A stretch of DNA of 64,000 bases from Candidatus Anaerotignum merdipullorum. Lineage in GTDB: Bacteria; Bacillota; Clostridia; Lachnospirales; Anaerotignaceae. The notes beneath the pieces are model-generated. The model did not search any database and was not told the DNA's origin. It saw only the letters and a program-made list of their open reading frames with translations. The DNA lies in contig DXEB01000023.1 in NCBI GenBank assembly GCA_019115165.1, positions 1-64,000 on the forward strand. The letters are read 5' to 3'. Position 1 is the stretch's first letter, and the number at the start of each line of letters is the position of its first letter. A program made the translations under genes and the position numbers. Shown here piece by piece: positions 2,028 through 43,718 of this stretch.

Positions 2028-4673
2028 TTAACAGCCTAACTGTTCTGCAATCACCATTTTTGCCTTTTCCAAAGCATCCGATATCTTCGAGGCATCCTTT
2101 CCGCCTGCCTGTGCCATATTCGGACGACCTCCGCCGCCTCCACCACAGACCACAGCTGCCGCTTTGATGATATTACCGGCATGCGCGCCTTTTTTCACAG
2201 CATCATCCGTTGCCATTGCCATCAGGTTCACTTTTCCGGATGTTCCACTCACCAGTACAATCACACCGCTGCCCAGTTTCTGCTTCAACTGATCGCCCAT
2301 GGTACGCAGTGCATTTCCATCCGCGTCTTTCACTTCTGCTGCCAGCACGGTTACACCGCCAATTTCCTCCTTGGCATTCAGCAATTCATCTACTGCACTT
2401 CCTGCCATCTTTGCTTTCCATTTTTCCAGCTCTTTTGCCGTTTCTTTTTGTTCCGCCAAAATCTGATCCAGCCGTGCCAACAGCTTATCCGGTGTGGATT
2501 TCACTTTCCGGCAGATTTCTTTGATTTCTTCTTCCTGTGCTTGATAATATTTCAGCGCTTCTTTTCCTGTTAACGCTTCGATTCTTCTCACACCCGCAGC
2601 TACCCCGTTTTCAGACAAAATTTTGAACGAGCCAATCTGCGCTGTATTATGCAGATGCGCACCGCCGCATAATTCAATGCTGTAACCGCCCATATTTACC
2701 ACACGCACCACATCTCCATATTTTTCGCCGAATAGTGCCATTGCACCCATATTCCGCGCCTCTTCCAAAGACATTTCTTCTGCGTGCACTTCATAACTTG
2801 CAAAAATTGCGTCATTGACCAGCTGTTCCACTCTTTTGATCTCTTCTGTTGTCATGGCCGCAAAATGTGTAAAGTCGAACCGCAGCCGTTCCGCACTAAC
2901 GTAAGACCCCGCCTGTTCCACATGCGTTCCCAGCACCGTGCGCAGTGCCTGATGCAGCAGATGCGTCGCGCTATGGTTTCTGGCAGAAGCCATCCGCGTC
3001 GGTACGTCGATACTTGCACAGGCAATCTCTCCCACCTGTATCGTGCCTTCTGTCACTTCTCCGATATGGGCAATTTTCCCGCCAACAACCTTCACACAGT
3101 CTGTTACCTGCACCACACCGGTTTCCGTGCGAATCACGCCGTGATCGCCTACCTGTCCGCCGCTTTCTGCATAAAACGGTGTTCTGTCTAAAAATACCGC
3201 AACACTCTGCCCTGTCTGCGCCATGTCTGTCACAGCATCATCGGCTACCAATGCAGCCACCTTGGCATTTGCCACATCGTACGTATCATATCCCGCAAAT
3301 GCCGTTTCCAGCGTTACAGGTAATTCATTGTACACCGTATCCGCAGCGCCCATATAATTGGATTTTGCTCTTGCCGCACGCGCCCGCTCTTTCTGTTGCT
3401 GCATTTCTACTGCAAAAGCATCTTCATCAATCTCCATTCCTTCTTCTTCCAGGATTTCTTTCGTCAAATCCACAGGGAATCCATAGGTATCATACAGACG
3501 GAAAGACTTTTCGCCGCTCATCACGTTATCACCGGTTGCTTTCATCTCTTCCATATCTGCCCGCAAAATTTCCATTCCCTTATCAATGGTTTTGTAGAAA
3601 CTATTTTCCTCAATCGAGAGAATCTTGAAAATATAATCCTGTTTCTCCACCAACTCCGGATATGCTTCTCCACTGCATGCAATCACTGACTTGGATAATT
3701 CTGCCAAAAATTCGCCTTCGATCCCCAGCAGCTTGCCATGACGCGCAGCACGACGCAGCAAACGACGCAGCACATATCCACGTCCTTCATTAGAAGGCAG
3801 CACACCGTCCGCCGTCATCATGGTCACAGAACGGATATGGTCTGTAATGACGCGCACAGAAATATCCGTTTTTTGGTCTGCCCCATAGATTACGCCAGCC
3901 TTCATACAAACCGCATCTCGGATGGATTTCACGGTATCAATATCAAAAATGGAATCCACACCCTGCATAATGGTTGCCATACGTTCCAATCCCATACCAG
4001 TATCTACGTTTTTCTGAGACAGTTCCGTATAAGTGCCGTCTTCTTCTGCATTGAACTGAGTCAATACCAAATTCCAGAATTCCATATATCGGTCACAGTC
4101 ACAGCCGACACCGCAGGTAGGTTTGCCGCAGCCATATTCTTCTCCGCGATCATAGTAAATCTCTGTACACGGACCACAGGGACCCGTCCCATGTTCCCAA
4201 AAGTTATCCTCTTTGCCCAATCTGACAATTCTCTCCCAGGGCAGCCCTACCTTTTCATGCCAAATATTACCCGTCTCATCATCCTCCTGATAAATCGTCA
4301 CATATAATTTATCTTCCGGAATTTCCAGCACTTTGGTCACAAATTCCCAAGACCAAGGAATGATCTCATTTTTGAAATAATCCCCAAAAGAGAAATCACC
4401 CAGCATCTCAAAAAAAGTGCCATGGCGAGCAGTTTTCCCAACGTTGTCAATATCACCGGTACGAATACATTTCTGACAAGTCGTCACTCGTTTTCTGGGG
4501 GGAATTTCCTGTCCCGTAAAATATGCTTTCATTGGCGCCATACCGGAATTAATCAGCAGCAGGCTATTATCATTATGCGGCACCAGCGAAAAACTGGGCA
4601 GCCGCAAATGGTCTTTCCCTTCAAAAAAACGCAGAAATTCCTCACGAATCTCATTAACTCCTAAATATTTCAT
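2028..4673 (-). CDS. alaS: Alanyl-tRNA synthetase
   Basis: 881 aa; catalytic core, editing domain (HSATHLLHQALRTVLG) and C-terminal DHHA1 region GGGGGGRPNMAQAGGKD. Confidence 0.98.
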   Translation of the reverse strand: MKYLGVNEIREEFLRFFEGKDHLRLPSFSLVPHNDNSLLLINSGMAPMKAYFTGQEIPPRKRVTTCQKCIRTGDIDNVGKTARHGTFFEMLGDFSFGDYFKNEIIPWSWEFVTKVLEIPEDKLYVTIYQEDDETGNIWHEKVGLPWERIVRLGKEDNFWEHGTGPCGPCTEIYYDRGEEYGCGKPTCGVGCDCDRYMEFWNLVLTQFNAEEDGTYTELSQKNVDTGMGLERMATIMQGVDSIFDIDTVKSIRDAVCMKAGVIYGADQKTDISVRVITDHIRSVTMMTADGVLPSNEGRGYVLRRLLRRAARHGKLLGIEGEFLAELSKSVIACSGEAYPELVEKQDYIFKILSIEENSFYKTIDKGMEILRADMEEMKATGDNVMSGEKSFRLYDTYGFPVDLTKEILEEEGMEIDEDAFAVEMQQQKERARAARAKSNYMGAADTVYNELPVTLETAFAGYDTYDVANAKVAALVADDAVTDMAQTGQSVAVFLDRTPFYAESGGQVGDHGVIRTETGVVQVTDCVKVVGGKIAHIGEVTEGTIQVGEIACASIDVPTRMASARNHSATHLLHQALRTVLGTHVEQAGSYVSAERLRFDFTHFAAMTTEEIKRVEQLVNDAIFASYEVHAEEMSLEEARNMGAMALFGEKYGDVVRVVNMGGYSIELCGGAHLHNTAQIGSFKILSENGVAAGVRRIEALTGKEALKYYQAQEEEIKEICRKVKSTPDKLLARLDQILAEQKETAKELEKWKAKMAGSAVDELLNAKEEIGGVTVLAAEVKDADGNALRTMGDQLKQKLGSGVIVLVSGTSGKVNLMAMATDDAVKKGAHAGNIIKAAAVVCGGGGGGRPNMAQAGGKDASKISDALEKAKMVIAEQLGC

Positions 4674-29385: not shown

Positions 29386-31851
29386 TTACCGCTTCGCATT
29401 TGCATTCATGTAAACAACTGTCGTCTTTCCTGTCTTGGTATCGGTATCCCAAGTCAAATCGGTAACCCCCAGAGCTGTTGCCAGATCACGCATAGGCAGG
29501 AAAGATCTGTCTGCGGTCAATTCCAATGTAGCACTGGTCGGAACTGCGCTGCCATTGACATACATGGTACGCGCATCTGCCGTCATAGAAATGATCCGAT
29601 CGCCATACAGTATCGTTACCGTTCTACTGGAAGGATCCCACAACACGTTATTGTTATTGATACCCAACGCAGTAGAAACCGCACGAATGGGCAGCATGGT
29701 ATATCCAGTTGCATTGACATAAGCAGGTGCGTCCAATTGTACAGTCGCTTCGCCCGCCATCATCTGTTTCTGCCCAATGGGAACGGTCAATTTCGTTGTA
29801 AAACCATTGACGTCTCTTCCGCCTGTCACAATATTGATAAATCCGGCTTTTTCTCGATAACTAATATCATCCGCTTCTTTCCCAGCATATACGGTTTCTT
29901 CCGCAAACAGGGTCTGCATCAAATATCCTTTATCTTTAGCAGTGCGGCGATCCGCATTGAAATTTTCCGCTTCTTTTGCAGAATCTGCTCCCAACATCGT
30001 CAGCGCATAGGCATACAAATCATAGGCACCCGCAGGCAGGTTTCTATCCATATACAGTGTCAAGTTAGAGATCGTTACCGATGCCGGCTCGTCATCACTT
30101 CTGGAATCTACCGTAAAGATCACTTCCCCATTGCTGGTTTTTACATTCTTGACTTTCAGACCGCTTTTCTTATCTGCTTCTACCGCTGCATCATTATCAA
30201 AATCAATTTTCTCCAGACGCAGTGCAAACTGAGTGCCTTTCTCCCACAAACCGGCTTCTGCCTCTGTAATCACAACGTTGGTGGGAATTGCTGTATTTCT
30301 ATAGTCGATAGACAAATCATTCTGTTCCGCTTTCACCGTATAAGGCTTTACAAATTTCGCAATCGTCACTTTCTGTGTCTCCAGTGCACCGCCTTCCAGT
30401 GTCAGCACCGCATCACCGGCAAAATCGGGATTTGCCACCAGAGTAAAGGTAATCCGCAGTTCATACGCGTCTTTTCCAACCTTGCTTTCTTCAAAAATAC
30501 GTTTGCCAAAAGAAAATTCTTCATATTTGCCGTCTTTATAAGCTTTTTTGAAATCTGTCTCCTGCAGAGGATCTCCATTGACTTCCACTTTTGTTGCAAA
30601 CACACCTTCCGGCAGACGAAGGGTAAAGCTCTTGGCATTATCCCATGCACCTGCAAATGTTTCTTTGATGGTTACTTCCAGGGATTCGTGATCGCTGTCA
30701 TCCGTAATCCCGGTATTGTTCACATCTACGCCACTGTAAATCACTGGAATATTCCGATCTGCATCTACTGTCATCTGTACGGTGTGATCTACCACTTTTG
30801 CTACTTCCACAGATACCGTATCATTTCCTGTTGCCGATACCTTAATGGTTGCCGAGGCGCCTTTTTTTGCTGAAGTTGCTTCTACCTGGATCCCAATCAG
30901 GGTCAACTCATCTGCTTCTGCAGACGCCATGTCTTCATTGACTTTAATGATGATTTCATCCTCGTCATAGGTGACTTCCGGTGTCACTTCTTTTCCATCC
31001 GCCTGAATCGTAATGGCGCGACTCTTGCTATTGGCAAATTCAAATCCGCTGCTCAGCTTCAGCGTAATGCTGTCCTTTTCTCCCAGCACCGCGCTGATAT
31101 TTGCACCAACAGAAGGCTTGATCTTCATATCCGAAATGGTGACCACTTCTTCCACCGCTACATCTTTCAGCTTCTTCACAGATACGGTGATCCCCTTATT
31201 GGCTACTGCCGCATACACCAGATCATCCCCATTGTTAATGGTCATATCTTTGGAGGAAACACTTACTGTTGCTTTGGTGTTCTTCGATGTCTTTTCCAAC
31301 TGGGAAGTCAAGTTATAAGACAGTACCCAACCACGCTGCATTTTCCCTTTCAATGTGATTGTCACTTCCTCTGTGCCGCTGACATCCACATCAGTGATTT
31401 CAATGGCTTTTCCATTGTCATCTACCAACACTTCGTCTTGTTTATTCATAAAAACATACTTGGATTGATAAGTGTCTTTGCCTTCTTGCAGCATATACTG
31501 AGAACTGTCTGCCCGCAGACCAATCAGTCCCGCCAAATGCTCTGCCTTTGTATTTTTACTGATTTTATTTTTATCCTTATCCAAAAATTCTGCTTTTTCC
31601 AGCTCCAATGTGATTTCTGCCTCCGGTTCACTGCTGCTGGAATAATCCGCTGTCGTAAAGGTTAACTGCAATTCTGGCGCATCTTTTGCCGCAATAATCC
31701 CCTTTTCTTTCTGTATCTCACTGACGGTATAATTCTCCGCCCCTACCACTTTGGCGCTGGCTTTTACATTTTTATTCGCCGCAAACGCCGTTGCTGGCAG
31801 CAATGATGTAGCTAGGATGCCAATCATTGCCAATGAAACTAATCTCTTCAT
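29386..31851 (-). CDS. Surface paralog A: secreted protein with C-terminal copper amine oxidase N-terminal-like (stalk) domain
   Basis: Signal peptide MKRLVSLAMIGILATSLLPATAFAA; C-terminal AYVNATGYTMLPIRAVSTALGINNNNVLWDPSSRTVTILYGDRIISM (PF07833-type pattern); 2466 nt from MKRL start. Confidence 0.88.
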   Translation of the reverse strand: MKRLVSLAMIGILATSLLPATAFAANKNVKASAKVVGAENYTVSEIQKEKGIIAAKDAPELQLTFTTADYSSSSEPEAEITLELEKAEFLDKDKNKISKNTKAEHLAGLIGLRADSSQYMLQEGKDTYQSKYVFMNKQDEVLVDDNGKAIEITDVDVSGTEEVTITLKGKMQRGWVLSYNLTSQLEKTSKNTKATVSVSSKDMTINNGDDLVYAAVANKGITVSVKKLKDVAVEEVVTISDMKIKPSVGANISAVLGEKDSITLKLSSGFEFANSKSRAITIQADGKEVTPEVTYDEDEIIIKVNEDMASAEADELTLIGIQVEATSAKKGASATIKVSATGNDTVSVEVAKVVDHTVQMTVDADRNIPVIYSGVDVNNTGITDDSDHESLEVTIKETFAGAWDNAKSFTLRLPEGVFATKVEVNGDPLQETDFKKAYKDGKYEEFSFGKRIFEESKVGKDAYELRITFTLVANPDFAGDAVLTLEGGALETQKVTIAKFVKPYTVKAEQNDLSIDYRNTAIPTNVVITEAEAGLWEKGTQFALRLEKIDFDNDAAVEADKKSGLKVKNVKTSNGEVIFTVDSRSDDEPASVTISNLTLYMDRNLPAGAYDLYAYALTMLGADSAKEAENFNADRRTAKDKGYLMQTLFAEETVYAGKEADDISYREKAGFINIVTGGRDVNGFTTKLTVPIGQKQMMAGEATVQLDAPAYVNATGYTMLPIRAVSTALGINNNNVLWDPSSRTVTILYGDRIISMTADARTMYVNGSAVPTSATLELTADRSFLPMRDLATALGVTDLTWDTDTKTGKTTVVYMNANAKR

Positions 31852-32099: not shown

Positions 32100-32181
32100 A
32101 TTATATCTGGCAGTATCTTCCTTGGCAATAGGGACAGCGGAATCTTAACTTCATTGTAAACACCTCGTAAGTTTTTCGTAA
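32100..32181 (-). promoter_or_regulatory. Promoter and phased direct repeats of paralog A
   Basis: Minus strand: -35 TTGCCA (32123-32128), 17 bp, -10 TATAAT (32100-32105); upstream repeats TTAAGA, TTACAA, TTACGA, TTACGA starting at plus 32143, 32154, 32165, 32176. Confidence 0.8.
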
Positions 32182-32709
32182 ACAATTCGCGATTTTCTTT
32201 CGAAAAATGTTCGTTTATTGTTTTTTTATCGATTCCTTATCAATTTCTTATTCTTTTTTAATTTAATTTTTATGTTTATCTCATATTTCACTGAATTCTT
32301 TGTTTTATAGAACCAAGTCCTTTTTGTATTCCCAACCATCTCAGATTCCTTTCTGCATCCATCTCTTTTCCCACTCTCAGCGTCTTTCGTCCATCACGCT
32401 CTCTGTCCTGAAACCGCATCCCTATCCTTCTCCTGCACAAAATTTCAATCTTTACCAGTTGATCCACAAAAGAACTGCTATTCGCGCCATCTTACTGCAG
32501 TTCCATCTTTTCATTACCACCGTCTTGTCCCATGCAACACCTTGCAGTACGCACTGCCTTTCAATCATTCCAAAGGGTTTCTTTCCTCCGTCAGACCAAA
32601 ACATACATACCAATAGGGAGGTATCCTTTGGATACCTCCCTGTCATCGTCAGAAAAGAAAATTTGGAAGTTGGTTACATAACCGCAGCAATCTTACATGT
32701 TCGCCAGCT

Positions 32710-35175
32710 TTACGCATTGGCATTCATATACACTACTGTTGTTTTTCCTGTATTGGAGTCAGAATCCCAAGTCAGATCTGTCACGCCCAAAGCGGTTGCC
32801 AAATCCCGCATCGGCAGGAACGCTCTATCACCGGTCAACTCTAATGTTGCACTAGTGGGAATGGCACTGCCATTGACATACATCACACTTGCGCCTGCTG
32901 TCATAGAAATAATACGGCTTCCATACAGAATCGTAACCGTTCGACTTGCCTGATCCCACAGTACATTACTGTTATCCGTACCCAATGCAGTTGCTACTGC
33001 ACGGATCGGCAGCATGGTATATCCATTGCTGTTGATGTATGCCGGCACATCCAGCTCTATGTTCTTCTCTCCCGCAATCAGATAAGCCTCGCCAATTGGC
33101 ACAATCAACTTCGTGGTAAATCCATCTACATCTCTGCCTCCAGTAATAATATGAACAAATCCAGTTTTTGCTACATAACTGATATCTTCCGCTTTTTCTC
33201 CGACAAATACAGTATCATCAGCATATAAGGTCTGTACCAGATATCCGTCTGCACCAGCGCTGTATCTGCTTGCCCGGAAGTTTTCCGCATCATCGGCGGT
33301 ACTTACGCCTAACATCGTTAACCCATATACAGATAAGTCATACGCGCCTGCCGGCAAATTTCTGTCCATATACAAGGTCAAATTGGAAATGGTTACCTCA
33401 GCGGGTTCTTCGTCACTTCTAGAATCTACCGTAAAGGTAATTTCACCATTGCTGGTCTTTACATTTTTTACAGTCAAACCACTGTCTTTATTCGCAGTAA
33501 TTACGGCATCATCATCAAAGTCGATTTTATCCAGACACAAGGCAAATTTGCTGCCCTTGTCCCACAAACCTGCTTCCGCTTCTGTAATGACAATATTGGT
33601 AGGGATTTCTGTATTTCTATAATCAATCGCCAAATCATTTTGTTCCGCTGTTACTGTAAATGGTTTGACAAACTTTGCAATGGTCACTTCCTGTGTTTCC
33701 AAAGCAGCGCCTTCCAACGTTAGTTCTACGTCTCCTTCAAAATCCGGATCTGCCACCAATGTAAATGTCACTGTCATTTCATATGGATCATCGCCAATTT
33801 TACTTTCCGCAAAAATGCGTTTTCCAAAGGAGAATGCTTCGTATTCCCCGTCCTCATACGCTTCTAAGAAGTCCGCTTCTTCCAGTGGATCCCCGTTTAC
33901 AGCCACCTCTGCCGCATATACGCCTTCCGGCAAACGCAGGATAAACGCTTTGCTGTTATCCCATGCGCCTGCAAACGTCTCTTTGATCGTCACTTCCAAG
34001 GATTCATGATCGCTGTCATCTGTAATGCCAGTATTTTCCGTGTCTACACCGCTGTACATCACCGGAATATCTTCCTCTTCGTCCACGCTCATTTGTACCG
34101 CATACGCAACCACCTTCGCGACTTCTACCGATACGGTGTCGTTGCCCGTAGCCAGAACGCGGATGGTTGCCGTCGCACCTTCTTTTGCTGTTGTTGCTTC
34201 TACCTGGACTGCACCAATGGTCAGCTCTTCCACATCCGCAGAAGCCATTGCTGCATTGACTTTGATGACCATTTCGTCATCGTCATAAGTGATCTCCGGC
34301 GTCGTTTCCGTATTTCCCGCTTTTACGGTAATGGCGCGGCTGTTGCTGTTGGCAAATTCAAATCCGCTGTTCAACTTCAACGTAATGGTATTGCCTTCGC
34401 TCAAAACAGCGCTCATGTTTGCACCGACAGATGGCTCCAACTTCAAATCAGAAATGGTAACCACTTCTTCTACCGCCACATCTTTGAGCTTCTTGACAGA
34501 AACTTGGATGCCTTTTGCCGCTACCGCTGCATAAACCAAGTCATCTCCGCCCGTAATCGTCATATCACGAGATTCCACCGTTACTGCAGCCTGTGTATTC
34601 TTAGATGTCTTTGTCAGCTTAGACGTCAAATTATAGGAAAAGACCCATCCGCGCTTCATCTGTCCTTTCAACGTAACTGTGATATCGTCTGTATCATCCA
34701 CCTCCAAGGCAGTAACTTCCACAGTTGTACCAATGGAATCTGTCAGAATGTCTCCCTGTCTATTGATAAAAACATACTGCCCTTCCTGTTCCGTCCCTGC
34801 TTCTCCTGCTGTCAGGATATACTGTGCACTGTCTGCCCGCAGTCCAATCAAACCCACCAGATTCTCCACAGTGGTCTGGCTTCCGACTTTGTCCCCATTC
34901 CTGTCCAGAAACTCTGCTTTGTCCAGTGTCAGCGTAATCTCCGCTTCCGGTACCTTTGTGCTGGCATAATCCGCTGTGGTAAACGTCAACTGCAGCTCTG
35001 CAGCTTCATCAGCAGAAATCACACCGTTTGTTCCCTGGATCTCGCTAACGGTATAATTCTCCGCACCGACGATTTTTGCCGTTGCCTTGACATTTTCATT
35101 CGCACCAAAAGCTGTTATTGGCAGCAATGACAGTATGAGGATGCCAGTCATTGCCATAGAAAATAATCTCTTCAT
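32710..35175 (-). CDS. Surface paralog B: secreted protein with C-terminal copper amine oxidase N-terminal-like (stalk) domain
   Basis: Signal peptide MKRLFSMAMTGILILSLLPITAFGA; strongly similar to paralog A throughout; also exactly 2466 nt. Confidence 0.88.
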   Translation of the reverse strand: MKRLFSMAMTGILILSLLPITAFGANENVKATAKIVGAENYTVSEIQGTNGVISADEAAELQLTFTTADYASTKVPEAEITLTLDKAEFLDRNGDKVGSQTTVENLVGLIGLRADSAQYILTAGEAGTEQEGQYVFINRQGDILTDSIGTTVEVTALEVDDTDDITVTLKGQMKRGWVFSYNLTSKLTKTSKNTQAAVTVESRDMTITGGDDLVYAAVAAKGIQVSVKKLKDVAVEEVVTISDLKLEPSVGANMSAVLSEGNTITLKLNSGFEFANSNSRAITVKAGNTETTPEITYDDDEMVIKVNAAMASADVEELTIGAVQVEATTAKEGATATIRVLATGNDTVSVEVAKVVAYAVQMSVDEEEDIPVMYSGVDTENTGITDDSDHESLEVTIKETFAGAWDNSKAFILRLPEGVYAAEVAVNGDPLEEADFLEAYEDGEYEAFSFGKRIFAESKIGDDPYEMTVTFTLVADPDFEGDVELTLEGAALETQEVTIAKFVKPFTVTAEQNDLAIDYRNTEIPTNIVITEAEAGLWDKGSKFALCLDKIDFDDDAVITANKDSGLTVKNVKTSNGEITFTVDSRSDEEPAEVTISNLTLYMDRNLPAGAYDLSVYGLTMLGVSTADDAENFRASRYSAGADGYLVQTLYADDTVFVGEKAEDISYVAKTGFVHIITGGRDVDGFTTKLIVPIGEAYLIAGEKNIELDVPAYINSNGYTMLPIRAVATALGTDNSNVLWDQASRTVTILYGSRIISMTAGASVMYVNGSAIPTSATLELTGDRAFLPMRDLATALGVTDLTWDSDSNTGKTTVVYMNANA

Positions 35176-35463
35176 GTTCTTTCCTCCTTTGTTTTTCCAA
35201 TCTGTTGCCGCTTGCGCCTCCGTTGTGCTGCATCTTCGTTGCACGATATAAAACGAAACGTTCTGCTGTTCTGTTGCTGGCAGAACAACAGGAAATGATG
35301 ACCGTCCTCACCAGAAAGCATAACCGCTGCCACCGTGCCCAACCGTGTACCGGTCGATGTTTTCCGGTAAGGATGCTCTGGAGTCCATAGGTATCTTGTC
35401 ATCCATTTGTCTTCCCCCGGACGTTTCTGGAATCAAGATACACTATGTTTTCCTTGCACCGCC

Positions 35464-35534
35464 ATTATATCTGCCAAAATTTTCAATTGCAAGAGGCGTC
35501 ATCGAACGCTAACCAAATTGTAAACGCTTAGAAA
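35464..35534 (-). promoter_or_regulatory. Promoter and phased direct repeats of paralog B
   Basis: Minus strand: -35 TTGCAA (35487-35492), 17 bp, -10 TATAAT (35464-35469); repeats TTAGCG, TTACAA, TTTCTA at plus 35507, 35518, 35529. Confidence 0.72.
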
Positions 35535-35606
35535 CGTCTATGCAAACAATCTGAAATGTTCTTTCGGAAAATGTTGGTTTTTTGTATTTTGTTCTACACA
35601 AAAAAG

Positions 35607-35645
35607 AAAACGAATGCCTTTTTTCAAAGACATCCGTTTTCCCGA
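35607..35645 (-). terminator. Intrinsic terminator of TolC-like gene
   Basis: minus strand AAAACGGATG...CATTCGTTTTCTTTTTT. Confidence 0.7.
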
Positions 35646-35673
35646 AAATCGCTTTGGATTTTTTCTCCTTGTC

Positions 35674-36870
35674 TTACTGTGCAGAACCACTGCTGGACAA
35701 CAGCTCCGTATTTTCAAACTGATAAATCTGCATGTCATGCGCATATTCCAGCTGGCGAACCGCATTTTCCGCCTGTTCTACAGCCAATTTCGCCTGTTCT
35801 ACTGTAATCGCCGTGGTATTGCCGGCTTCCAGATTGATCTGTGCAACACGATAAGCTGCTTCTGCCTGCGATAAGGCAGTTCGTGCTGATTCATGCTGAG
35901 ATTCCAGTGATAGAATCGTATTATATGCATTTTGGATCGCCAGCGTTTTGCTGTCCTTCGCCGTTTTCAGGCTGCGCTTTGCCGTATCATACGCATTTTC
36001 ATTGGTCGCAGAAGTCGCATTGGTGGAGGAAATAGACAAATAGTTCTTGTTGAATTCCGCATCGTCTACTGCCTGTTCCTGTAGTTTAATCGTATAATCC
36101 GAGTTCAATTTGCTGTTGATGTACTGATCCATGGTCTGATTCATGGTATACGGCTCATACTCTGTGTCATCGATCAAAATATACGCTGCATCGCTGTCTG
36201 CGCCAATCAAGTCATAGAACGACAAATATTCCTGTGCCAGCGCCATTTCCAATTTCGTCACATTATATTGCGCCTGTTCATAATCACTGCGCAGGGTATC
36301 CAAATCATAATCACTGAGCAATCCCAGGCGATTCTTCAGCCTGCCCTGTTCATACAGCGTTTTCTTGACTGCGGTATCCTGCTTTGCCAGCTCCAGCGAG
36401 CTTTCATCACTGAGAATGGACGTAAAGGAATTCTTTACCGTTGCTTCTATGGTCAACTTGGTGATTTCTCTGGAATAGCTGTTTTTGGTCATATTACTGC
36501 CAATCGTTTGGATGGAGGAATAGATACTGTAAATATCATCATCCACCCATTGTTGATAAGATACCGTCGGCACGCTGAAGGAACCAGTAATATCCCAGAT
36601 ATCTTCTTTCAACTCCTGCAAATATTCCGCCGTATCCGCTACATTCCGCAGTTCTGCGCTGTTGTCCATGGCCATATCCACTGCTTCTTCCAGCGTCAGT
36701 TCTTTTTCCTCCTGTGCTGCTTTGGCAGCCGCCTCTTCTGCCGTCAAAATTTCGACAGCAGGCACTGTTTCTTCCGTTTCCTGCGCTGCAAAAGCCGATG
36801 TGGAAAGCATCAGCGACAATCCCAGCGCCACCGCCGCCGCGACTTTTCCTTTATAGAACAAATATTTCAT
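35674..36870 (-). CDS. TolC-family-like secreted coiled-coil protein
   Basis: Signal peptide MKYLFYKGKVAAAVALGLSLMLSTSAFAA; ELTLEEAVDMAMDNSAELRN, long helices, GLLSDYDLDTLRSDYEQAQYNVTKLE and LEAGNTTAITVEQAKLAVEQAENAVRQLEYAHD are TolC-like repeats. Confidence 0.78.
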   Translation of the reverse strand: MKYLFYKGKVAAAVALGLSLMLSTSAFAAQETEETVPAVEILTAEEAAAKAAQEEKELTLEEAVDMAMDNSAELRNVADTAEYLQELKEDIWDITGSFSVPTVSYQQWVDDDIYSIYSSIQTIGSNMTKNSYSREITKLTIEATVKNSFTSILSDESSLELAKQDTAVKKTLYEQGRLKNRLGLLSDYDLDTLRSDYEQAQYNVTKLEMALAQEYLSFYDLIGADSDAAYILIDDTEYEPYTMNQTMDQYINSKLNSDYTIKLQEQAVDDAEFNKNYLSISSTNATSATNENAYDTAKRSLKTAKDSKTLAIQNAYNTILSLESQHESARTALSQAEAAYRVAQINLEAGNTTAITVEQAKLAVEQAENAVRQLEYAHDMQIYQFENTELLSSSGSAQ

Positions 36871-37265
36871 TTCTCCAAACCTCCCGAACAGGATTTTCAA
36901 AAATATGTTTATGATAAAACGAATTATACCATAAAATCTGCGAAAAAAATAGGTATTTTATCATTTCTTAAAAAAACCTTCAAAAAAAATAAAGCACACA
37001 ATGGAATGCCTTTGCTCTCGCTTGTTTTTGCATCCGTTTCGGTTTATCGCGCAAAATATCATGTATTATGATGTTTTTGATGCAATTTATCTCCTCCAAA
37101 AACAAGACCTGCCTTTCTCTGTCCAAATCATCTTTTATTTTCTGATATCTTGTGAAACACGCTGGCTTTTTGGAACTGCCTCCTGCCAAAAGCTTCTTTG
37201 TTCTTTCATAAAAATCTTCACAATTCGCAAAATTTTATGTTTGAAACGCGCTGTTGTATTTGCAC

Positions 37266-37308
37266 GCAAAAAAGAACCCTCCTCAGAGGATTCTCCAAGA
37301 AGGGTTCT
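37266..37308 (-). terminator. Intrinsic terminator of paralog C
   Basis: minus strand AAGAACCCTTCTTGGAGAATCCTCTGAGGAGGGTTCTT-TTTTT. Confidence 0.88.
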
Positions 37309-37363
37309 TCTATTTGCTTTTCAAACCGCGTCACTGCCAAGGCAGATTTGCCGATGGGGCAAA

Positions 37364-39874
37364 TTATTTGCTGCCGTTCAGTGTAGCTGTTCTGGTAGCT
37401 GCGTCCCAAGCGATATCGGTTACGCCCAGAGCTACGCCCAGGTCTCTCATCGGGATGAATGCTCTGCCGTCTACGATTTCAACTGCTGCACTCATCGGGA
37501 TAGCCTGACCACTTACATACATTACGGACTGACCGTTCTGCATGGAGATGATTCTGCTACCATACATGATGGTTACCGTTCTGGAAGGCTGATCCCACAG
37601 TACGCTGTTTGTGTTGATGCCCAGAGCATATGCAACGGCTCTGATGGGCAGCATGGTGTAACCGTCTGCGCTGATGTATGCGGGTACATCCAGAGCGATC
37701 TGGTTTTCACCAGCGATCAGGTAGTTTTCGCCAACAGGTACAACTACTTTGGTTGTGAAGGAGCTGTCGTCATCTTCACGACCTGCGGTTACGATGTTCA
37801 CGAAACCAGCTTTTGCTGTGTAAGATACGAAATCATCGTTGATGTCTGCGATGCAATCTACATCACCATCGCTCAGAAGCATACCCAGAACTTCTTCTTG
37901 CAAGTAACCTTCTCTAGCATCGTCCGCGCCAAATTTATCCTTTTCTACGCCCAGCATGGTAGAAGAATATACATCCAGGTCATATGCACCTGCAGGCAGG
38001 CTTCTGTCCATATACAACTGCATACCGGAGATGGTTACTTCTGCGGGTTCGTCGTCACTTCTGCTGTCTACTGTGAAATACAGAACATCATTGTCATGAT
38101 TTCTGCCGTCCAGTTTCACTTCGTCGTCTTTGATTTCCAGACCACTCTTGTCATCTACTGTGATTGTACCTTCATCATCGAAGTTAATTTTATCCAGTTC
38201 CAGAACAAACTCTGTATCTTTATCCCACAGACCAGCTTCTGCTTCTGTAATCACGACAGAAGTCGGAATTTCTGTATTTCTGTAGTCGATCTTCATATCG
38301 TTCTGTTCTGCTGTTACGGTAAAGGTTTTTACAAATTTTGCAATGGTTACTTCCTGTTCTTCCATAGCGTCGCCGGACAGGGTCAGAACAACGTCACCTT
38401 CGAAGTTGGGGTCTGCTACCAGTACCAGCTGGAAGGTCAGTTCGATGGGATCATCGTTGTCAGGATCATCCGGATCGCTTTCGTCCCAGCTTCTCTTTTC
38501 GAAGGTCAGGTTCACATAGTCACCTTCGTTATAAGCTGCTTCGAACCAAGGATATTCACCATTGTCAACACCACCCGTTCCAATATCGAAAGTCGGGCTA
38601 ACCACATCTACAATGTATACACCTTCGGGAACAGACAGGGTAAAGTCTTTGCTGTTATTCCAAGCACCAGCGAAGGTTTCTTCAATGGTTACTTCCAGAG
38701 ATTCGTGATCGCTGTCATCTGTAATACCATCGTTGTCAACGTTTACGCCGCTGTAGATCACAGGTACGTCTTCGTCTTCATCCACGCTCATCTGTACAGC
38801 ATATTCTACTATGGTTGCAACTTCTACGGAAACAGTGTCAGAACCGTCCAGAGTCACTCTCAGGGTTGCAACAGAGCCAGCTTTTGCATCCGCGGAGTCG
38901 ATCTTCAGCCCAGTGATTTCCCATTCGTCAATACCATCAACACCATCAACAATCATAGCATCATCCATAGGAATCACGATTTCATCGTCATCCACCTGCG
39001 CACCCCAACCGTTCAGAGTTCTGGTTGTTGTACCTGCTGTCAGCTCTGCCTCAGCCATGTTGCTGGTTACAAATTCAAAGCCGTTGTTCAGTCTCAGGGT
39101 CAGTTCATCTTCCGGATCAACTGTGCTCAACCCAAAATCATTGAAATCGCCAACAGTTGCTTCGATGGTGATATCTTCCAGGGTTGTGATTTCGTCTTCT
39201 GCTACGTCAACAGTATCCTTTACGGATACGTCAATGCCTTCTCTCTCAATAGAAGCGTATACCAAATCATCACCGTTGTTGATTTCGATATCATCGGATT
39301 CTACGGTAACGGTAGCTGTTTTGCCTCTGTTGGCATTGTCAATCAGGGAATCCAGAGAGATCAACAGTTCCCAACCAGCCGTCATTTTGCCAGAAAGGGT
39401 AAATGTCAGTACATCTTCGTCAGCATTAAGCTCAACATCTGATACCACGATAGTGTGATTATCACTATCTGTTAACTCATCAGTGTTATCGTCTACAGCT
39501 ACAAACTTACCAGAAGCACCATTTCGATAATTCGCAGTACCATCTTTGTCAGTGTTAATATAGAACACGTTTGGTGCCGCACCACTCACCCCAGCCTGGC
39601 TGAGTATTTTATCCGCGTCCCATGTAGCATTCTCCAAAGTCACTTCGATCTCTGCAGATGCAGTTGCAGATGAATAACTTGCTGTGGTAAAACGCAGCAT
39701 CAACTCTGCGTCGCCACCGATTGGATCTTCGTCATCCAAATCACCGTCGGCGTAGCTTTCCGCTTCCACCACACTCGCTCTGGCTTTTACGTCGCCGCTT
39801 GCCGCAAATGCCGTTGCGGGCACCAGGGATACGACCATAGCCGCAGCCATTACCATGGAAAGAAATTTTTTCAT
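37364..39874 (-). CDS. Surface paralog C: secreted protein with C-terminal copper amine oxidase N-terminal-like (stalk) domain
   Basis: Signal peptide MKKFLSMVMAAAMVVSLVPATAFAA; C-terminal AYISADGYTMLPIRAVAYALGINTNSVLWDQPSRTVTIMYGSRIISM; homologous to A, B and D. Confidence 0.88.
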   Translation of the reverse strand: MKKFLSMVMAAAMVVSLVPATAFAASGDVKARASVVEAESYADGDLDDEDPIGGDAELMLRFTTASYSSATASAEIEVTLENATWDADKILSQAGVSGAAPNVFYINTDKDGTANYRNGASGKFVAVDDNTDELTDSDNHTIVVSDVELNADEDVLTFTLSGKMTAGWELLISLDSLIDNANRGKTATVTVESDDIEINNGDDLVYASIEREGIDVSVKDTVDVAEDEITTLEDITIEATVGDFNDFGLSTVDPEDELTLRLNNGFEFVTSNMAEAELTAGTTTRTLNGWGAQVDDDEIVIPMDDAMIVDGVDGIDEWEITGLKIDSADAKAGSVATLRVTLDGSDTVSVEVATIVEYAVQMSVDEDEDVPVIYSGVNVDNDGITDDSDHESLEVTIEETFAGAWNNSKDFTLSVPEGVYIVDVVSPTFDIGTGGVDNGEYPWFEAAYNEGDYVNLTFEKRSWDESDPDDPDNDDPIELTFQLVLVADPNFEGDVVLTLSGDAMEEQEVTIAKFVKTFTVTAEQNDMKIDYRNTEIPTSVVITEAEAGLWDKDTEFVLELDKINFDDEGTITVDDKSGLEIKDDEVKLDGRNHDNDVLYFTVDSRSDDEPAEVTISGMQLYMDRSLPAGAYDLDVYSSTMLGVEKDKFGADDAREGYLQEEVLGMLLSDGDVDCIADINDDFVSYTAKAGFVNIVTAGREDDDSSFTTKVVVPVGENYLIAGENQIALDVPAYISADGYTMLPIRAVAYALGINTNSVLWDQPSRTVTIMYGSRIISMQNGQSVMYVSGQAIPMSAAVEIVDGRAFIPMRDLGVALGVTDIAWDAATRTATLNGSK

Positions 39875-40102
39875 GGCAATCATTCCTCCTTTTTTCTTTT
39901 CATCTCGTCTCTTCGTTTTATAATTATACAACGAACCTGCATATTTCTCCGCACCCCTCTCTCTACCGTCCGCCGCCTCCGAAAGCGGCTCCGCAGTCAC
40001 TTCAGTCATTCCCCCACTCCACGAAGTTCCCTTGGATTCTTTGGTGCTGCTCTCATCCGCGCCGAAGCGATACAGAGAAAGCGCAATTTCGTATGCAAGG
40101 TT

Positions 40103-40172
40103 ATTATATCTATGCATTCTTGTTTTTGCAAGCGAATTTTGCAGATGTAACAGAACTGTAATTTTACGGTAA
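40103..40172 (-). promoter_or_regulatory. Promoter and phased direct repeats of paralog C
   Basis: Minus strand: -35 TTGCAA (40126-40131), 17 bp, -10 TATAAT (40103-40108); repeats TTACAT, TTACAG, TTACCG at plus 40145, 40156, 40167. Confidence 0.8.
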
Positions 40173-40763
40173 CATAAAAAAAGAATGGAAAATCGGTAGA
40201 AATGGCTATTTTGCAGCATTTTACGGTATGTTATCAGAGAAAAAGGAGACTGGATGGCTGTCATATTACATCGGAAATCTGATTGGAATTCTCTCTTTGT
40301 TTACGTATAATATACATATATATACATTTATAATACAAGTGTAACGCTTTAACACTGCATTCGTACACTTTTGTATTCATTTTGTATTTTTCTGTTTTTT
40401 TACTGTTTTCTTCCATCATGTGTATGCATTCTTCTGTATGGTAACAGATAGAGGGAGCTTTTGCAAGCGTATTGAAGGGACGATTATTTGCATTTGATGT
40501 ATGGAACAGAATAAGTATACATTTGTAGTTTATTTGTGTTCTAACGAGGTGCGGGATGGGCGCGGTTTGCAGCCTTCGCTCTGCGTTTTCAGGATTTGCG
40601 GCTGATTCGCTGCGCTTACCATTTCCCAGCTGGACGTCACAAGGCGATTCCTTTCTGCCGCCCAATGGCAGAGCATCTATGCTCCCGAGCGCAACCTCCC
40701 CAACCGCCTCTTCCCGCTTTTGAAAAAGAGGTGAATCCATCCGCCGTTTTCCGCAGCGAAACA

Positions 40764-40806
40764 AAAAAAGAACCCTCCTCAGAGGATTCTCCAAGAAGGG
40801 TTCTTC
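40764..40806 (-). terminator. Intrinsic terminator of paralog D
   Basis: same hairpin sequence as the paralog C terminator, followed by a T tract on the minus strand. Confidence 0.88.
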
Positions 40807-40859
40807 TATTTACTTTTCAAACCGCGTCACTGCTAAGGCAGATTTGCCAATGGGGCAAA

Positions 40860-43325
40860 TTATTTGCTGCCGTTCAGTGTAGCTGTTCTGGTAGAAGCAT
40901 CCCATACGATATCGGATACACCCAGAGCTACGCCCAGGTCTCTCATCGGGATGAATGCTCTGCCGTCTACGATTTCAACTGCGCCGCTCATCGGAATAGC
41001 GGAGCCGTTTACATACATTACGGACTGACCATTCTGCATGGAGATGATTCTGCTACCATACATTACTGTTACGGTTCTGGATGCCTGATCCCACAGTACG
41101 CTGTCGGTTGTGATGCCCAGAGCATAGGATACGGCTCTGATGGGCAGCATGGTGTAGCCGGCTGCGCTGATGTATGCGGGTACATCCAAAGATACTTGCT
41201 GTTCCCCAGCGATCAGGTATTTTTCGCCAACAGGTACAACTACTTTTGTTGTGAAGGAGCTGTCATCCTGATCTCTACCTGCGGTTACGATGTTCACGAA
41301 ACCAGCTTTTGCTGTTGTGCTGTAGAAATCGTCATTAACGTCTTCTACTTCTTCAACATTCAAATCAGTGCCTTTATTGTCTTTGTCTTTTGCAAACAAC
41401 TCTTGAGCCTGATAACCGTTATCCATCCATACATCCAAGTCGTATGCACCTGCAGGCAGGCTTCTTTCCATGTACAGCTGCATGCCGGAGATCGTTACAG
41501 ATGCGGGTTCATCATCACTTCTGCTGTCTACTGTAAAGGACAATACACCGTTATTTTCTTTGATCTCATCGTCTTTTACTTCCAGACCGCTCTGATCATC
41601 AATTGTCAGAGTACCTTCATCATCGAATTCAATCTTATCCAGTGCCAGAACGAATTCTGCATTCTTATCCCACAGACCTGCTTCTGCTTCAGTAATTACT
41701 ACGGAAGTCGGAATTTCAGTATTTCTGTAGTCGATCTTCATGTCGTTCTGTTCTGCTTTTACTGTGAAAGGTTTTACAAATTTTGCAACCGTTACTTCCT
41801 GTTCTTCCATAGCGTCGCCTGTCAGTTTCAGAACAACGTCGCCTTCAAAGTTCGGGTCTGCAACCAGTGTCAGTGTGAAGTTTACTTCGATCTTGTCACC
41901 AGTACCAGGTTCTGTTTCTTCCCAAGTTCTTCTTTCAAATGCCAGTTCCAGATATTCACCTTCATAGTAAGCATCTGCAAACCATGTTGTTACTTTATCT
42001 CTGCCAGCATCAGGTGTGATCTTCAGATCGCCATCGCCAACCCAGTTTGCATCTACATCAGTAATGTAAACGCCTTCCGGTACAGAGATTGTGAAGTCTT
42101 TGCTATCGCTCCAAGCGCCAGCAAAAGTTTCTTCCAGAGTTACTTCCAGAGATTCGTGATCGCTGTCATCTGTGATACCGTCGTTGTCAACGTTTACACC
42201 ACTGTAGATAACAGGTACATCTTCGTCTTCATCCACGCTCATCTGTACAGCATAATCAACCACGTTGATTGCTTCTACAGATACAGTGTCAGAACCAGTC
42301 AGAGTTACTCTGATTGTGCCTGTGCTGCCTGCTTTTGCAGAAGTAGCTTCCACTTCCAGACCTGTAATTTTCCATTCATCAACGCCGTTAATCAGACCTG
42401 CGCCTTCCAGATCGTCAACCATAATTGTGATTTCGTCGTCATCTCTGTCAAAATCAACATTCTGACCATTGATTTCTACATCGGTTGCTTTTGTGAATTC
42501 ATAACCGCTGCTCAGTCTCAGTGTCAGTTCCGCTTTGTCATTGTTTGTATCCACAACTGCTGCAAAATCACTGCCTACGGAAGGTTCTACTGTGATTTCT
42601 TCCAGTTCAGCAATTTCTTCTTCTGCGATATCAGTTGTGTCTTTGATAGAAACATCAATGCCTTCGCTTTCCACGGAAGCGTAAACCAGATCAGCACCAT
42701 CATTGGAAATGGTGATATCGCTGGAAGAAACGCTTACTGTAGCTTCTTTGCCTTTGGATGTTTTATCCATTTCTGTTTCCAAATCAACGTACATCATCCA
42801 GCCACGGTCGAATTTGCCTTCGATTGTCAGAATCAGTTCATCATCGCCGTCTACTTCAATCTGTTTCAATCTCAGAGCCTGACCATCAACACCAATCAAA
42901 GAATTATTGTGATCTACATAATCACTACCTGCTGCTCTGGTGTTCTGGAACCAACCATCAGCATTAACAGGGAAAGAATAGTTGCCTGCTGTGATGGATA
43001 CCAAATTTGCTGGAATTTCACTTCTATCAGCTTCATAAACAGTGTCTGCATCCAATCCATTTTCTGTAAAGAATGCATTGTCCAGTGTCAATGTAATTTC
43101 TGCTTCTGCAGCAGCGCTACTGTAGTCTGTTGCGGTAAATCTCAACTGCAGTTCAGGACCGGAGATTACTTTGTTATTTGTATCTTCGATTTCATCCTGA
43201 GTGTAGTTTTCTGCATCTACCACTCTAGCTGTGGCTTTTACGTCGTCGCTTGCCGCAAATGCAGTTGCGGGCACCAGGGATACGACCATAGCCGCAGCCA
43301 TTACCATGGAAAGAAATTTTTTCAT
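40860..43325 (-). CDS. Surface paralog D: secreted protein with C-terminal copper amine oxidase N-terminal-like (stalk) domain
   Basis: Signal peptide near-identical to C; 2466 nt; AYISAAGYTMLPIRAVSYALGITTDSVLWDQASRTVTVMYGSRIISM. Confidence 0.88.
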   Translation of the reverse strand: MKKFLSMVMAAAMVVSLVPATAFAASDDVKATARVVDAENYTQDEIEDTNNKVISGPELQLRFTATDYSSAAAEAEITLTLDNAFFTENGLDADTVYEADRSEIPANLVSITAGNYSFPVNADGWFQNTRAAGSDYVDHNNSLIGVDGQALRLKQIEVDGDDELILTIEGKFDRGWMMYVDLETEMDKTSKGKEATVSVSSSDITISNDGADLVYASVESEGIDVSIKDTTDIAEEEIAELEEITVEPSVGSDFAAVVDTNNDKAELTLRLSSGYEFTKATDVEINGQNVDFDRDDDEITIMVDDLEGAGLINGVDEWKITGLEVEATSAKAGSTGTIRVTLTGSDTVSVEAINVVDYAVQMSVDEDEDVPVIYSGVNVDNDGITDDSDHESLEVTLEETFAGAWSDSKDFTISVPEGVYITDVDANWVGDGDLKITPDAGRDKVTTWFADAYYEGEYLELAFERRTWEETEPGTGDKIEVNFTLTLVADPNFEGDVVLKLTGDAMEEQEVTVAKFVKPFTVKAEQNDMKIDYRNTEIPTSVVITEAEAGLWDKNAEFVLALDKIEFDDEGTLTIDDQSGLEVKDDEIKENNGVLSFTVDSRSDDEPASVTISGMQLYMERSLPAGAYDLDVWMDNGYQAQELFAKDKDNKGTDLNVEEVEDVNDDFYSTTAKAGFVNIVTAGRDQDDSSFTTKVVVPVGEKYLIAGEQQVSLDVPAYISAAGYTMLPIRAVSYALGITTDSVLWDQASRTVTVMYGSRIISMQNGQSVMYVNGSAIPMSGAVEIVDGRAFIPMRDLGVALGVSDIVWDASTRTATLNGSK

Positions 43326-43563
43326 GGTCATCATTCCTCCTTTAGAATTTTTGTTTCGTTTGTTTTGGTTCGTTTTATAATTATACAACGAAGATGTTTG
43401 CATTTCATCCAACCTTCGCCGTACCCTCCTCCCGTTTGGAGCCGTCCCGCAGGCGTCTTTGGTTCCCTCTCCCCCATTCCTTGAGTTCTCCTCCGCCGTC
43501 TTTGGCACCGCCCCGCCCGTTTGCAAGGAACGGACAAAACGTTCAGATTTACTTTGCAGGATT

Positions 43564-43634
43564 ATCATATCAGGGTGTATACTTTTTGGCAAGCGATTTT
43601 TTCTAATTGTAATATAACTGTAATTTTACTGTAA
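43564..43634 (-). promoter_or_regulatory. Promoter and phased direct repeats of paralog D
   Basis: Minus strand: -35 TTGCCA (43587-43592), 17 bp, -10 TATGAT (43564-43569); repeats TTACAA, TTACAG, TTACAG at plus 43607, 43618, 43629. Confidence 0.8.
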
Positions 43635-43675: not shown

Positions 43676-43718
43676 TTGTCCACGAAAAGTTATCCACTTT
43701 TCCACAGAGTTATCCACA
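43676..43718 (+). promoter_or_regulatory. Cluster of four DnaA-box-like 9-mers
   Basis: TTGTCCACG 43676, TTATCCACT 43690, TTTTCCACA 43698, TTATCCACA (perfect consensus) 43710, all in the same orientation. Confidence 0.7.

Follow-up and report, generated by a model that had tools for sequence, protein, structure and literature searches.

PhoB-type regulators of E. coli and B. subtilis recognise pho boxes, which are direct repeats with a period of 11 bp. In the Firmicutes, WalR (also called YycF or VicR) controls envelope genes through a single dimer site upstream of the -35 box, for which the consensus TGTWAH-N5-TGTWAH has been published (PMC4168254, PMC9210968). In S. aureus, WalR sites that lie upstream of the -35 go together with activation, in either orientation (PMC10746227). 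For C. difficile, the available text of an RNA-seq study reports that WalR raises each of the S-layer genes in its Wal-ON set, six in number (cwp2, cwp5, cwp12, cwp16, cwp17 and cwp66), and this text mentions neither slpA nor a direct-repeat array at an S-layer promoter (PMC9210968).

The locus described here shares with the Firmicutes WalR regulon the type of direct repeat, envelope genes as predicted targets, an identical recognition region in the regulator and the placement of sites upstream of the -35; with C. difficile it shares the raising of surface-layer protein genes by WalR, which we predict here from the DNA. It differs from the known regulon in having three or four repeat units instead of one dimer site, in having major surface proteins as targets, and in an array that lies within the wal operon itself. 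From PhoB-type pho boxes, in turn, it is set apart by the sequence of the repeat unit and by a pst operon that lacks the motif.

Repeat arrays ahead of four surface-protein genes

The window, by which we mean the whole 64-kb stretch of DNA analysed, contains four related genes, A to D, each of which is preceded by a repeat array and a core promoter. These features are given below, together with scores from a matrix (the wal matrix) for which 49 wal-type arrays, all taken from other genomes, served as the training set.

40860-43325, minus strand: gene D, a secreted 821-aa multi-beta-domain surface protein with a C-terminal Cu_amine_oxidN1 domain
43607-43634, minus strand: D array, TTACAG-N5-TTACAG-N5-TTACAA, with units at 43634-43629, 43623-43618 and 43612-43607 (TGTAA-type on the plus strand); top match to the wal matrix in the window, 17.7 bits
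43564-43592, minus strand: D core promoter, TTGCCA-N17-TATGAT, beginning 14 bp after the array and ending at 43564
37364-39874, minus strand: gene C, encoding an 836-aa paralogue of D with 65% identity
40145-40172, minus strand: C array, TTACCG-N5-TTACAG-N5-TTACAT, first unit at 40172-40167; 15.8 bits
40103-40131, minus strand: C core promoter, TTGCAA-N17-TATAAT, beginning 13 bp after the array and ending at 40103
32710-35175, minus strand: gene B, a paralogue, 821 aa
35507-35534, minus strand: B array, degenerate, TTTCTA-N5-TTACAA-N5-TTAGCG; 5.6 bits, weak
35464-35492, minus strand: B core promoter, TTGCAA-N17-TATAAT, beginning 14 bp after the array and ending at 35464
29386-31848, minus strand: gene A, a paralogue, about 820 aa
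32143-32181, minus strand: A array, TTACGA-N5-TTACGA-N5-TTACAA-N5-TTAAGA, four units with the last decayed, first unit at 32181-32176; 2.9 bits, weak
32100-32128, minus strand: A core promoter, TTGCCA-N17-TATAAT, beginning 14 bp after the array and ending at 32100

The 11-bp repeats, the gaps of 13-14 bp and the 17-bp promoter spacers, all of which had been described in a first-pass annotation of this DNA, can be read on the minus strand at these places. The exact pattern TTAC-N7-TTAC-N7-TTAC occurs three times in the window, at A, C and D, and among periods of 7 to 16 bp the 11-bp period alone yields any triple TTAC in the window, all others giving zero matches. When one mismatch is allowed, four instances are seen against 0.15 expected, a number that was reached in 0 of 100 shuffles. 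Frequent occurrence at unrelated genes, which the annotation had named as an observation that would speak against its reading, is not what we find: the motif is rare elsewhere, with six exact matches in the whole assembly of 2.22 Mb, comprising A, C and D, two overlapping instances in the walRK operon (contig C61) and one on contig C23. These and the other genome-wide scans reported here are pattern searches.

The four arrays are unequal. In the promoter-proximal register, agreement with three TTACA units amounts to 15/15 positions for D, 14/15 for C, 12/15 for A and 11/15 for B, so the arrays are strong at C and D. The three good units of A lie one step upstream of this register, its proximal unit being decayed, while B possesses a single good unit and would not stand out by itself. 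The effective number of codons is lowest, among the window genes compared, for D (34.3) and C (39.8), as against 46-48 for A and B, in line with D and C having the strongest arrays. Directly upstream of the D array, three DnaA-box-like 9-mers (TTATCCACT, TTTTCCACA and TTATCCACA) are clustered at 43690-43718 on the plus strand.

The proteins A to D are mutually paralogous (50-65% identical) and combine signal-peptide-like starts with a C-terminal Cu_amine_oxidN1 domain, the only domain detected in a domain scan, which found no S-layer anchoring domain (SLH, CWB2). Homologues are present in 58/58 family genomes searched. A structure model of D is all-beta and of modest confidence (mean pLDDT 67, pTM 0.43), and a structure search with it returned only loose matches to multi-Ig-like surface proteins, with low TM-scores. 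Electron microscopy has revealed a surface layer in two Anaerotignum species (PMC10053330); together with the signal-peptide-like starts, the low effective codon number and the all-beta model, this makes it plausible that C and D constitute the S-layer. Between B and C, at 35674-36870 on the minus strand, lies an ORF for a protein with an outer-membrane-efflux-protein domain (PF02321), in a genome that has spore genes; similar ORFs are also present within the L052, L053 and L055 clusters.

WalR and the array inside its operon

Read on the opposite strand, the surface-gene array becomes TGTAAN-N5-TGTAAN and fits the WalR consensus, with at most one mismatch in the arrays of C and D and weakly in those of A and B. 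Weaker arrays, with two mismatches each, are located at NlpC/P60-SH3, G5-3D and SLH-CAP genes of the same genome. The genome encodes 11 OmpR-type regulators, and in an NCBIfam scan of ten of them a single one, encoded on contig C61, scored above the YycF/WalR equivalog cut-off (345.8 versus 340). The gene of this WalR orthologue (G000:C61:4930-5625), on a contig other than the window's, belongs to the walRK-yycHI operon, whose products are a response regulator, a HAMP-PAS-HisKA kinase and a small exported protein, followed by a YycH-like protein and YycI. Its recognition region is identical to those of B. subtilis YycF (2d1v), E. faecalis VicR (2hwv) and two further PDB chains. With an assembly completeness of 87%, this inventory may lack another regulator.

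The same operon carries a four-unit array of the WalR type (L018, G000:C61, about 3010-3064, minus strand), situated between walK and the genes for the small exported protein and yycHI. Here a -10 box is present, no -35 is recognisable, and exactly 10 bp separate the array from the -10. E. coli pho boxes are laid out in the same way, taking the place of a -35 at a distance of 10 bp from the -10. Within the family, an array follows directly 3' of walK in 21 of 29 walK loci, its last hexamer always separated from the -10 by 10 bp, and across the order TGTAA-N6-TGTAA-N11-TATAAT is found in 116 of 295 genomes, versus 2 control matches. Among the order-level matches fetched from other families (n=40), 22, spread over seven further families, sit on the 3' side of walK at a distance of 23-131 bp. 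At other loci outside the family (mainly f12; L257, L258, L259, L261, L283, L290 and L292, YycH having been scored in all but L283 and L290), the array precedes a unit of small exported protein and YycH-type protein with walK undetected upstream, so that it seems to be linked to the yycH unit. The clearest novelty of this analysis is a conserved, putatively WalR-responsive promoter within the wal operon, given that this operon is reported to lack autoregulation in S. aureus and C. difficile (PMC9210968, PMC4801191).

In the genus (7 genomes), 25 near-perfect three-unit arrays stand against 1 for a reversed control pattern, and they cluster in three settings: at A-D-type genes, on the 3' side of walK, and in the interval from rplQ to ecfA. 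The array of this last setting, where a long gap separates rplQ from the gene of the ECF transporter ATPase, is kept in three genus genomes (G000:C40:1085-1122, G001:C53 and G003:C20). The composite pattern of an array, 13 or 14 bp and TTGNNA-N17-TANNNT has 38 matches in 58 family genomes and 0 in the control; about 27 of these are at A-D-type genes, and LysM-G5 genes of relatives show the same combination of array and promoter. A lack of conservation at orthologous loci was another observation that the first-pass annotation had named as speaking against its reading; the repeats are kept at homologous promoters.

Applied to the window, the wal matrix returns the D and C arrays as its four best matches, compared with at most 12.5 bits in 20 Markov windows, while B ranks sixth and A thirteenth, both below this null. 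On homologous leaders, 25 of 29 score above the 99% null; every one of these matches is on the antisense strand, and 24 of the 25 fall 267-308 bp ahead of the start codon. The matrix takes the wal arrays to be WalR sites; it shows the wal arrays and the surface-gene arrays to be one motif, and it is silent on which protein binds. What the DNA shows directly is that the arrays exist, how they are spaced, that they are conserved and that they coincide with the published WalR motif.

Proposed control of the surface genes and its rivals

A regulator of the OmpR/PhoB family would occupy such an array in the form of head-to-tail dimers, placing a monomer every 11 bp along a single helix face, and the most likely candidate is WalR from the walRK-yycHI operon on contig C61. 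At C and D, and to a lesser degree at B and A, WalR~P positioned some 13-14 bp ahead of an intact sigma-A promoter would help to recruit RNA polymerase, and the synthesis of abundant surface (S-layer-type) protein would thereby track the cell-wall growth signal of WalK. The array in the wal operon, which replaces a -35, would drive yycHI and thus create a feedback loop on WalK. WalR binding, activation by this binding and the existence of feedback are what we infer from the motif and its placement; that WalR~P, encoded elsewhere, activates C and D, and B and A more weakly, we consider likely. There is good support for the earlier proposal that the regulator belongs to the OmpR/PhoB family and is encoded outside the window, as the site matches the published WalR motif and a WalR orthologue with an array in its own operon lies on another contig. 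Coordinate activation of the whole set by one regulator, as also proposed, is evident by motif only at C and D, the scores of A and B being weak.

Given that the arrays match the WalR site and that WalR's own operon carries the same repeats across the order, production of the surface coat is probably tied to the control of cell-wall growth. This would constitute a concrete candidate circuit for matching coat supply to wall growth, in which the essential WalR acts directly at coat-protein promoters. We also lean towards a broader scenario, in which WalR feedback through a pho-box-like promoter 3' of walK, driving yycHI, is an order-wide feature, and the Anaerotignum group has captured the promoters of its major surface layer for WalR, coupling S-layer supply to peptidoglycan growth.

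It is conceivable that the arrays are bound not by WalR but by a WalR-like paralogue (L007, G000:C44), the mechanism being otherwise the same. This protein has the second-best YycF score (287 bits) and a recognition helix that is nearly WalR's, with T to H at one position, and its conservation in 54 of 57 family genomes is so near universal that presence and absence cannot tell the two regulators apart. However, it remains below the YycF equivalog cut-off, differs from WalR in the wing (K-W against K-R) as well as at the one recognition-helix residue, and is encoded in an operon with no array within the surrounding 8 kb, whereas the wal operon contains one across the order, and we therefore regard it as an unlikely regulator of these genes. 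No more probable is a role for WalR in which it binds and yet represses, or merely tunes, promoters that are already near consensus. C and D do carry good -35 and -10 boxes, and WalR represses some targets in other genomes (PMC10746227), but the arrays are located wholly upstream of the -35, at a fixed phase of 13-14 bp that corresponds to the activation-linked position, and the S-layer genes of the C. difficile Wal-ON set all rise.

The similarity of A to D could also stem from shared ancestry alone, with inherited upstream DNA, possibly an A/T-phased UP-like element, and no dedicated regulator. While the paralogy of the four genes would fit this, their N5 spacers and surroundings have diverged with units and phase kept, and the same motif turns up in many families at wal operons, which are unrelated loci, and is predictive of the surface-gene promoters, which makes ancestry alone very improbable. 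Phosphate control, a lead of the first-pass annotation, would make the repeats pho boxes bound by PhoB or PhoP and the surface proteins phosphate-responsive. These regulators share the protein family and the 11-bp repeat mode, and B. subtilis pho boxes resemble TTAACA-N5. Yet the 12-kb stretch with pstS-pstCAB-phoU-PhoB-PhoR, which includes the operon's own PhoB (L010) and kinase, contains no array within three mismatches, and the genome-wide array matches are envelope genes and the wal operon. The Pho regulon was ruled out on the absence of the motif from the pst operon, and phosphate control of the surface genes is hardly credible.

A palindrome in the leaders

The leaders of three of the genes contain a further element:

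43369-43392, minus strand: 24-bp near-palindrome TTCGTTGTATAATTATAAAACGAA in the D leader
39912-39935, minus strand: 24-bp near-palindrome in the C leader, identical to that of D
35235-35257, minus strand: gapped form of the palindrome, TTCGTTTTATATCGTGCAACGAA, in the B leader

At C and D, the palindrome is positioned 37-44 nt ahead of the start codons. It was found in 20 of 58 family genomes, almost exclusively in A-D-type leaders. An Rfam scan of the leaders detected no known RNA element at E<0.5, and an RNA hairpin found no support for the 24-bp element, single-strand folding being no better than that of shuffles (z -0.9 to +0.4). In genome G020, the palindrome has undergone a symmetric double change at dyad positions that are too close for hairpin pairing. 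Both observations suggest that the element is likelier to be a DNA dyad than an RNA hairpin, perhaps a binding site for a dimer.
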